From contig JAIPEW010000021.1 of assembly GCA_021736985.1 (NCBI GenBank), positions 1-57,310 of the forward strand: a stretch of 57,310 nt of DNA. The letters run 5' to 3'. The notes below the pieces were generated by a model, which worked only from the letters and a program-made list of their open reading frames with translations, was not told where the DNA came from and searched no databases. The DNA is from Clostridiales bacterium. Its GTDB lineage: Bacteria; Bacillota; Desulfotomaculia; Desulfotomaculales; VENG01. The first letter of the stretch is position 1. Every line of letters begins with the position of its first letter. A program made the translations under genes and the position numbers. Positions 12,054 through 14,938 of this stretch are shown piece after piece.

Positions 12054-13022
12054 GTGAAATTATTTAACAGCAGCCTGTTTAAAAAATCCTCTTTAACTTT
12101 CAGGCTCAGCCTGGGCATCACCATACTGATAATGTTCATTATGGGAACCGCAGGAATAGCTACTTTCATGCGCGACCGCGATATGTTTATAGAAAAAACA
12201 TATTCCCGCGGGTGGTCTACGGTTGAAACAATACAAACAATGGCAGCTGCACCATTAAAAAACGGAAATATTAAACTGCTTAATAAATTAACGTCCCAGC
12301 TCGCAGATGATGCATTTATAAAAAGGGCAGTGATCACGGATAAATCTGGTAATATTATAGCACACAACAAAATAGAGCACGTAGGTTCTTCCCTTAAAGA
12401 TATTAATATAAAAAAAGTTCTTTCCAACAAAGAAAAACATGTTGGACAGCTTTATAATAAAGAAGGAACAGTCACTGCCCTAACTTTTTCAGCCCCTGTA
12501 AAAAGTGAAAAAAATAAAAACCAGGGATATATCTACCTGGCCGCAGACCTTACCCTGCTGCAGAACTACCTGCAGGAAACAATACAAAGATTAATTTTAC
12601 AATTTGTACTGGCCAGCATTGCCGGAATGATCTTAACCCGATTAATTATACTGCGTTCTGTTAACCGCCCGGTACAATCACTGGTAAAAGCAAATGAACA
12701 ACTTGCCAACGGAAACTTTTCTCAAAAAGTTGATATAAATACCAGGGACGAGCTGGGGACCCTGGCTAAATCTTTTAACGGCATGACTGACCAGCTTGAA
12801 TTTTTATTTCAGTCAATACGTAAAACTGTTTCTGACATTAGCAGTGCCTCCAGCTCTATAGTAAAACAAACCGACAATTTAAAAGATACGGAATATGAAA
12901 CTGACAGTTCTAGACCAATAGAAACAGCAAAAGAGATAAATACAACGGCCCGCCGCCTTACTCGCATGTCAGACAAGTTAAACGCTCTTGCCCTGCAGTT
13001 CAAAACCAGGGATGGTCAGTAA
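12054..13022 (+). CDS. Membrane sensor-like protein with extracytoplasmic and HAMP domains
   Basis: 322-aa protein: transmembrane helix at about 18-40, an extracytoplasmic sensor region (about 40-175, with the double-Cache-like stretch AVITDKSGNIIAHNK and VTALTFSAPVKSEK), a second helix at about 180-200, then a HAMP domain (NRPVQSLVKANEQLANGNFSQKV, about 205-255) and a short coiled-coil tail. There is no kinase, methyl-accepting or cyclase output domain, so the signal must pass to a partner. GTG start after GAGGTG. It lies last in the tad operon and may link a stimulus to pilus activity, which is inference. Confidence 0.82.
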   Translation: MKLFNSSLFKKSSLTFRLSLGITILIMFIMGTAGIATFMRDRDMFIEKTYSRGWSTVETIQTMAAAPLKNGNIKLLNKLTSQLADDAFIKRAVITDKSGNIIAHNKIEHVGSSLKDINIKKVLSNKEKHVGQLYNKEGTVTALTFSAPVKSEKNKNQGYIYLAADLTLLQNYLQETIQRLILQFVLASIAGMILTRLIILRSVNRPVQSLVKANEQLANGNFSQKVDINTRDELGTLAKSFNGMTDQLEFLFQSIRKTVSDISSASSSIVKQTDNLKDTEYETDSSRPIETAKEINTTARRLTRMSDKLNALALQFKTRDGQ

Positions 13023-13039
13023 TACCGGGGACGGTTCTT

Positions 13040-13340
13040 GACTTGAATTGCTCATAACTAACACAACGGAGAATGAAAACTCTTTGAGCAGCCGTATTAA
13101 GGCCGGTGGTACTAGGAGCGAACGTACGAAGGCACATTCAAAGAGCGAATGAGGCCGAGGAAAAGCGCCGGGGCAAAGGGCAGGGGTGAGAAGTGGGAAA
13201 TTAGAGGTGGGAAAAAGAAAAGTCTACGCAGCAGACTTCCTCAAATTGTCACACTTCCCACCTCCCACATTACACTTCGCAAATGACGGGCTATGCAGCG
13301 CACCCAGATTCCGCTACCTTCCGCAAATCCACCGGCCATT
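13040..13340. repeat. Dispersed non-coding repeat, third copy with inverted ends
   Basis: Carries the same blocks as 1-660 but in the order B then A: GAATGAAAACTCTTTGAG, then GGCCGGTGG (13101-13109), the core TTCAAAGAGCGAATGAGGCC, and finally the A-part core ending CCACCGGCC (13329-13337). The outer GGCCGGTGG and CCACCGGCC are exact inverted repeats, so the unit can fold. Between them, AAGTGGGAAATTAGAGGTGGGAA (13193-13215) is mirrored by TTCCCACCTCCCAC (13254-13267). Confidence 0.65.
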
Positions 13341-13520
13341 TTAATTTGATCTGCGTTTAGGACCAACGGAGCGAACGAGGATCAATGGCAAGCAGCTAAA
13401 ACTAGAATTTTCTGGAAACCGTTGATATTTAGTGCGAATCCTTTTAACCCAAGAGCAGGAATCATATATCAAAAATAGAACAAGTTAAAATAAACTACTA
13501 TACTAACTGGAGGAATAGTT
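13341..13520. other. Intergenic region before the DsbA-like gene
   Basis: AT-rich spacer between the repeat and the start codon at 13521. It holds the Shine-Dalgarno GGAGG near 13509 but no promoter I would defend. Confidence 0.4.
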
Positions 13521-14099
13521 ATGGCAGTAAGAATTCTCGCTTTTTCTGATTACCTTTGACCGTTTTGCTATATCGGGGAGAAGAGGTTAGAAAAACTGCA
13601 GGGGGAATATGATATAGAGATTGATTGGAAAGCCTTTGAAATCATGCCGGAAGGAAGGCCGCGGCCCAGCAAGGAAGACCTGGAAGAAGGCTTTGCAGGT
13701 TTTCAGCGCATGGCAGAAAAAGAAGGCATAAAAGTTAATTTCAACCCTCACTTTAATTCTTCCCGTCTGGCCCTGGAAGGTGCCAAACATGCCCAGCAAA
13801 AAGGTAAGTTTCATGAATATAATAAAAGAGTGTATACGGCCCAGTTCATAGACAGCCAGGACATCTCAGACATAAACGTTTTAACTGAAATTGCTGAACA
13901 AGCAGGATTAGACCGTGCTGAATTTAAAGAAAAACTGGATAAACGCCTCATGAGTGATTACGTAGACGCAGACATGGAGGAAGCAAAAAGGCTGCAGGTC
14001 AAGGCTGCACCGACCTTTTTTATTGGAGAAAGTGAAAAAATTGTAGGATCTAAAACAGATGAAGCATTTGAAAACGCCATGCAAAAAGTACTTTCATAA
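13521..14099 (+). CDS. DsbA/FrnE-family thiol oxidoreductase, probable selenoprotein (in-frame TGA = Sec13)
   Basis: 192-aa thioredoxin-fold protein of the DsbA/2-hydroxychromene-2-carboxylate isomerase group. Reading from ATG 13521, with GGAGG eight bases upstream, the frame gives MAVRILAFSDYL, then TGA (13557-13559), then PFCYIGEKRLE, and runs open to the TAA at 14099. In the family this place is the CPFC (CxxC) redox motif, so TGA stands exactly for the first, attacking cysteine, giving U-P-F-C. A SECIS-like hairpin follows at once. The cis-proline motif AAPTFFIG sits near residue 170. No signal peptide, so cytoplasmic. The alternative is a pseudogene with translation from ATG 13644, but that would lose the active site and the first strand. 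Confidence 0.85.
13562..13596 (+). promoter_or_regulatory. Candidate bacterial SECIS hairpin
   Basis: Starting two bases after the TGA codon, GTTTT (13562-13566) pairs with AAAAC (13592-13596) and CTA (13568-13570) with TAG (13588-13590). A G/A mismatch lies between them. TC/GA can close an apical loop GGGGAGAA that starts at 13575, about 15 nt after the TGA. Bacterial SECIS elements typically place a G at the start of the apical loop at about this distance. The folding was done by eye. Confidence 0.6.
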
Positions 14100-14120
14100 A
14101 TTCACCCGCTAATAAATTAG

Positions 14121-14157
14121 GGCCGGAGATAATGCCACCATGGCACAACCTCCGGCC
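14121..14157 (+). terminator. Inverted repeat after the selenoprotein gene
   Basis: GGCCGGAG (14121-14128) pairs with CTCCGGCC (14150-14157) and encloses a smaller TGCC/GGCA hairpin. It lies between convergent genes. There is no U-run on either strand, so this is a weak or factor-assisted terminator at best. Confidence 0.5.
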
Positions 14158-14167
14158 TGAAACATAT

Positions 14168-14938
14168 TCATACCCCGCACAATAACCTTTTTTGCAGCAT
14201 ACCCCCCAGGGGCATAATCCTGTCAACCTTCACTTTAAGCCTTTTTCCATCCCTCAGTTTAAGCAAAAAGTTTATAAGCATTTCTATCAAGGGATCTGCT
14301 GTTTTAATCATAAATAAATTATTCTTAAAACTTTCATCCTGAGGTTTGTCCATAAAAGCCCTCTTTAAAACCGGCCTGTCATAATAATTTTTTAGTTTGT
14401 CTAAATTATCTTCCAGCAGCAGAATTATATCGTTTAAAGCTAATTCATTTTCAAATATAAACTTGAATTGTATTAAGAAGCAATAAATAAAGCGTTTTAT
14501 TTCAAAACCATTTGCTACAAAAGGACCATAATCATACAATTCCATTTTACATAAAGAACACCGGTCATTTGGAGAAACTATAATGTGATCAACTAACTTA
14601 ATGCCCAGCAGTGCCAGTTGCCACTTTAACACTTCTGTAAGCACAATATCATCCTGGGAAGGTATTATACCACTGAACCATGGTTCTTCCGGGTGATTGT
14701 GTATAATAACAGCTTCCTTAATCGTGATACCCCTGCTTATGAGCCAGTCAAGAACAATGTTTAGAGGCGGTATCACTGCCCACCTTGTTCCGCCGCTCTC
14801 CCCGTACAACGTATGCAGGACATTATTATCATCCATGAATACTAAAATTACCTGTTCCTCAGATTTTGTTGAAATTTCTTCCACTTCTTTGATATAAAAA
14901 ATGTCCTCCCTTATATTAGAGGATACCAAAAAAGCCAC
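14168..14938 (-). CDS. RadC/JAB-like (MPN) domain protein
   Basis: 256-aa protein whose N-terminal 140 residues resemble the RadC-type JAB domain: VIIHNHPEEPWFSG then PSQDDIVLTEVLKWQLALLGIKLVDHIIVS. That gives the HxH and S-x-D zinc-binding pattern of JAMM metalloproteins and the LGI-x-LVDHIIV stretch of RadC. The remaining 115 residues are not recognised. It lacks the helix-hairpin-helix N-terminus of true RadC. GTG start, preceded by AGGTG. Its promoter carries a perfect Fur box, so expression should rise when iron is short. It may be a metal-dependent isopeptidase or hydrolase; the substrate is unknown. Confidence 0.72.
   Translation of the reverse strand: MAFLVSSNIREDIFYIKEVEEISTKSEEQVILVFMDDNNVLHTLYGESGGTRWAVIPPLNIVLDWLISRGITIKEAVIIHNHPEEPWFSGIIPSQDDIVLTEVLKWQLALLGIKLVDHIIVSPNDRCSLCKMELYDYGPFVANGFEIKRFIYCFLIQFKFIFENELALNDIILLLEDNLDKLKNYYDRPVLKRAFMDKPQDESFKNNLFMIKTADPLIEMLINFLLKLRDGKRLKVKVDRIMPLGGMLQKRLLCGV

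Follow-up and report, generated by a model that had tools for sequence, protein, structure and literature searches.

An in-frame TGA at the active site of a FrnE-type DsbA protein very probably encodes selenocysteine in a Clostridiales bacterium

DsbA-like proteins in which selenocysteine (Sec) occupies the first position of the redox motif (UxxC) have been described before: one, assigned to COG2761, was predicted in the 2005 survey of the Sargasso Sea selenoproteome (PMC1088965), a 2006 paper (PMC1794560) lists one for Desulfotomaculum reducens, and a 2026 review includes a 'DsbA-like protein form 1' (PF01323, UxxC) (PMC13188914). FrnE of Deinococcus radiodurans (DrFrnE; DR_0659; PDB 5cnw, 5cp1 and 5xwh) is described in PMC8945050 as a disulfide reductase of the cytoplasm, with a mutant sensitive to cadmium and diamide; our search of the literature for FrnE as a selenoprotein returned nothing relevant. 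Here we analyse a gene in a 57,310-nucleotide stretch of DNA from a Clostridiales bacterium (the window) that is very probably a genuine selenoprotein gene of this already known kind. Its product resembles the published DsbA-like selenoproteins (COG2761/PF01323) in its Pfam domain, in a UxxC motif with Sec first and in its widespread Cys homologues, a match made by description and not by sequence alignment. What is new is the window member itself, its membership of a subclade that differs in lacking the SECIS stem of its relatives in the order, and tree evidence against a single clade of Sec forms.

A FrnE-type reading frame with one TGA

The frame that opens at ATG 13521 and closes with the TAA at 14097–14099 contains a single in-frame TGA (Table 1). 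A complete DsbA/FrnE frame with the TGA in place of the first active-site Cys had been claimed in the original prediction, and both the coordinates and the alignment are correct: the TGA is position 1 of a UPFC motif (residues 13–16), the counterpart of the CPxC redox motif, and when homologues are aligned it falls on a TGA in the relatives from the order and on a Cys in 17 Cys homologues. The read-through product matches the Pfam DSBA family (PF01323) over residues 5–188 (E 6.1e-37; 127.7 bits against a cut-off of 25.6) and FrnE in sequence (E 9e-16). A conserved proline, P164, precedes the last strands, and from the thioredoxin fold we take it to be the cis-proline.

A predicted model of the read-through protein (pLDDT 92.2, pTM 0.88) has a complete DsbA-type thioredoxin fold with a helical insertion, in which residue 13 directly precedes a helix (14–29) and Pro164 directly precedes a strand (165–168). 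The solved structure nearest to this model is that of Deinococcus FrnE (Z 25.8 over 192 residues, rmsd 2.1; Foldseek TMq 0.90). The two proteins share their fold over the whole length at 25% identity and have the CP(W/F)C motif at matching places, whereas DrFrnE has a Cys at the active-site position where the window protein has the predicted Sec, and carries a C-terminal CXXXXC, proposed to regenerate its active site, that is absent from the window protein, in which C16 is the only Cys. Some other FrnE proteins are also without this C-terminal motif (PMC8945050), which is thus common but not universal in FrnE and therefore not a defining feature of the subfamily. The HCCA isomerase, kappa-class GST and YjbH group of the DsbA superfamily shares the fold as well (Z about 21–23), but with a lower Z than the FrnE match and 13–23% identity.

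Standard annotation had been expected to report a truncated gene beginning at 13644, and the mechanical ORF is indeed 13644–14099, with the redox site missing. As the real start of the gene, ATG 13644 agrees with that ORF and would give a 151-residue protein devoid of a redox site. We regard such a start as exceedingly unlikely: ATG 13644 is preceded by no Shine-Dalgarno-like sequence, whereas a strong GGAGG precedes 13521; the product would, according to the model, lack beta1-alpha1-beta2 of the thioredoxin fold; and codons 1–41 are under purifying selection. None of the NCBIfam selenoprotein models scores above its curated cut-off for this protein (NF041057, 42.5 bits against 190), so an automatic pipeline would probably overlook the Sec and give a truncated gene without the redox site.

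No neighbouring gene is conserved beyond close relatives, and none stands out as an operon partner. A repeat upstream of the gene recurs near the start of the window, with 86–98% identity (99–152, 370–423 and 13284–13337; 508–572 and 13094–13158). A search of 13000–14300 with Rfam gave only a sub-threshold AdoCbl-II match (E 0.31).

Table 1 Features of the predicted selenoprotein gene in the window
Feature	Position	Strand	Remarks
Shine-Dalgarno GGAGG	13509–13513	+	7-nt spacer before ATG 13521; read from sequence
FrnE/DsbA-type selenoprotein gene (predicted)	13521–14099	+	192 residues including Sec13; PF01323 match, homologues and model
In-frame TGA, predicted Sec13 (U of UPFC)	13557–13559	+	opposite TGA in relatives from the order and opposite Cys in 17 Cys homologues
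Candidate SECIS stem-loop	13562–13596	+	best fold with G in the loop; -5.1 kcal/mol for the hairpin alone
Cys16 (C of UPFC), presumed to be resolving	13566–13568	+	sole Cys in read-through protein
Apical loop GGGGAGAA of candidate SECIS	13575–13582	+	first base is the 16th nt after the TGA
Truncated ORF expected from a standard gene caller	13644–14099	+	151 aa, without redox site; mechanical ORF listing
Pro164 in APTFF, expected cis-proline facing active site	14010–14012	+	invariant in 13 aligned relatives

Selenocysteine machinery and conservation of the TGA

The source genome (2.84 Mb in 65 contigs, 100% complete) was searched for selA, selB, selC (tRNA-Sec) and selD, and counterparts of all four were found. 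SelB (379 bits, 637 aa) adjoins a SelA-like ORF of 470 aa (L039:5233–6645) that is named by its sequence and place and not by a profile; SelD scores 396 bits; and tRNA-Sec, with anticodon UCA, scores 71.4 bits, above the cut-off, with ARAGORN in agreement. SelD (locus L042; G000:C44:161461–162393) is itself a TGA-containing selenoprotein; its gene has an in-frame TGA, downstream of which lies a strong hairpin, GUCGCAG-GUA-CUGCGAC. Across the order, SelB is found in 110 of 113 genomes.

Since homologues have Cys at the TGA position, one might suppose that a suppressor tRNA or a recoded genome translates the TGA as Cys, Trp or some other residue. Such decoding is highly improbable in a genome that possesses the Sec machinery, uses TGA as an ordinary stop (it ends 3 of the 37 window ORFs of at least 150 aa) and has tRNA-Sec as its sole tRNA with a UCA anticodon among the 41 distinct tRNAs examined, some tRNA hits being untyped.

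A homologue of the gene is detectable in 28 of the 113 genomes of the order, and the matching codon is TGA in 28 of 28, the residues and codons at this position having been read for most of these homologues. The homologues that carry the TGA are 28–62% identical to the window protein, the nearest (from G001, a genome of another genus in the same family) being 61–62% identical. In codons 14–41, pS between the window and G001 is 0.93 (nearly saturated) and pN is 0.10, which indicates that the protein is under purifying selection both before and after the TGA. In a draw of 398 genomes from the phylum, all nine TGA forms outside the order sit in SelB-positive genomes, whereas of the 21 Cys forms 15 belong to SelB-negative genomes and 6 to SelB-positive ones (Fisher p = 0.0007). 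This distribution is the classical pattern of Sec/Cys exchange.

These comparisons also bear on whether the TGA is a TGC or TGT that became TGA in the assembly through recent pseudogene formation or a sequencing error. The weakness of the window's own hairpin (see below) and the presence elsewhere in the gene of lesions in two other copies of the subclade would suit that explanation, but a recent nonsense change is contradicted by the retention of the TGA in 28 genomes of the order and in nine others of the phylum; with selection flanking the TGA at a near-saturated synonymous rate, and with the Shine-Dalgarno sequence and the frame intact, we give a pseudogene or an error very little credence.

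The two broken copies carry the same TGA and lie in near-identical loci of different genomes: L092 (G150:C35), at about 1190–1850, and L093 (G098:C36). An extra in-frame TAG appears to interrupt the first and a frameshift the second, possibly as a result of decay or of contamination of G098 (8%). In G150, an ORF (L092:431–919) directly upstream of the FrnE copy matches the C-terminal portion of selenoprotein B of glycine reductase (GrdB, PF07355). A search of the class to which G150 belongs added no further members of the window's subclade.

Hairpins downstream of the TGA

The SECIS hairpin of the order-wide relatives is strongly conserved and covarying. It consists of a 7-bp stem, UCGGCAA/UUGUCGA, and a 5-nt loop (e.g. 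AGGUA) that starts 21 nt after the TGA. Across 29 distinct sequences 99% of cells are paired, compared with 26–55% in slid controls, both partners have changed in two of the pairs, and none of 500 shuffles has a covariation score as high. Synonymous differences among the order relatives amount to 10% (0.10) in codons 18–24 as against 59% (0.59) in codons 27–192, a dip after the active-site codon that is absent from Cys homologues.

Fitted to the window copy, the stem of the relatives forms only 4 of its 7 pairs, the level of the Cys controls (2–5), and was rejected as the window's own element. The original prediction had instead placed a hairpin with a G-rich apical loop just after the TGA, and this stands in part. 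A hairpin with the loop GGGGAGAA, laid out as GUUUU-G-CUA-UA-UC [GGGGAGAA] GA-GGU-UAG-A-AAAAC, is the minimum-energy fold of a 56–58-nt stretch (-13 kcal/mol); on the other side, it is unexceptional against shuffled sequences (z about -1), and rival hairpins with a loop closer to the TGA come out at a similar energy. The window, G001 and G150/G098 have the loop region AUCGGGGARAAG in common, and with so few sequences sharing it the structure of the window's SECIS is unproven. Between the window and G001, 6 of 8 codons are identical in codons 15–22 as against 43 of 100 elsewhere, which is suggestive only of synonymous constraint after the TGA. We therefore did not use the fold of the window copy as proof, and the case rests on conservation; a SECIS with the GGGGAGAA loop, weaker than and different from that of the relatives, is a plausible candidate. 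According to a 2022 review (PMC9312934), the proposed SECIS elements of certain established selenoprotein genes deviate from the consensus bacterial model.

Taken together, the machinery, the conservation of the TGA, the distribution with SelB, the SECIS of the relatives and the confident FrnE fold make the gene very probably a selenoprotein gene, in support of the original prediction: Sec genes are present, and the TGA is no recent nonsense change. We are accordingly highly confident that it encodes a cytosolic DsbA-type selenoprotein of the FrnE subfamily in which UGA 13557 is decoded as selenocysteine.

Origins of the Sec forms and a proposed mechanism

On an unrooted protein tree of 49 rows, which include long Cys rows, the Sec rows do not form one clade (AU p = 0.0027), and the starred branches require three or more changes. 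Most Sec forms lie in the order-wide clade; the window and G001 sit apart from it, near the Sec forms of G115, G263 and G191. G115, G263 and G191 have a possible hairpin of their own, CUUGACC-AGUU-GGYCAAG, read from three sequences without a covariation test. It is conceivable, though we would stop somewhat short of calling it probable, that in this phylum the FrnE family gained Sec more than once at one active-site position, and that every gain brought a separate, non-homologous SECIS: UCGGCAA/UUGUCGA with an AGGUA loop in the order-wide clade, CUUGACC/GGYCAAG with an AGUU loop in G115, G263 and G191, and the GGGG-loop element in the window's clade. Several Cys-to-Sec gains, an early Sec state followed by losses and by turnover of the SECIS, and horizontal transfer are all possible.

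For the selenoprotein itself we propose that SelB with Sec-tRNA-Sec would decode UGA 13557, aided by the stem-loop directly downstream, and that the resulting U-P-F-C active site would be placed at the N-terminus of helix 1. By analogy, the Sec13 selenolate would attack a substrate disulfide, Cys16 would resolve the mixed selenosulfide, and the Se-S bond would then be re-reduced by thioredoxin or a low-molecular-weight thiol; with the C-terminal CXXXXC of DrFrnE absent, regeneration would have to use another donor. We infer both this redox direction and these partners. Like DrFrnE, which is cytoplasmic, the window protein is probably cytosolic, since it starts at the first strand and leaves no room for a signal peptide. 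It would act there as a selenol/thiol-disulfide oxidoreductase, most likely reducing or isomerising disulfides and shielding an anaerobic cell from oxidative or metal stress.

The window gene adds a well-supported and probably mis-annotated member to a FrnE/DsbA-type UxxC selenoprotein family that recurs across a Sec-using order. With Sec and Cys forms side by side and differing hairpins after the TGA, the family offers a tractable case for studying the origin of Cys-to-Sec exchange and of SECIS elements.
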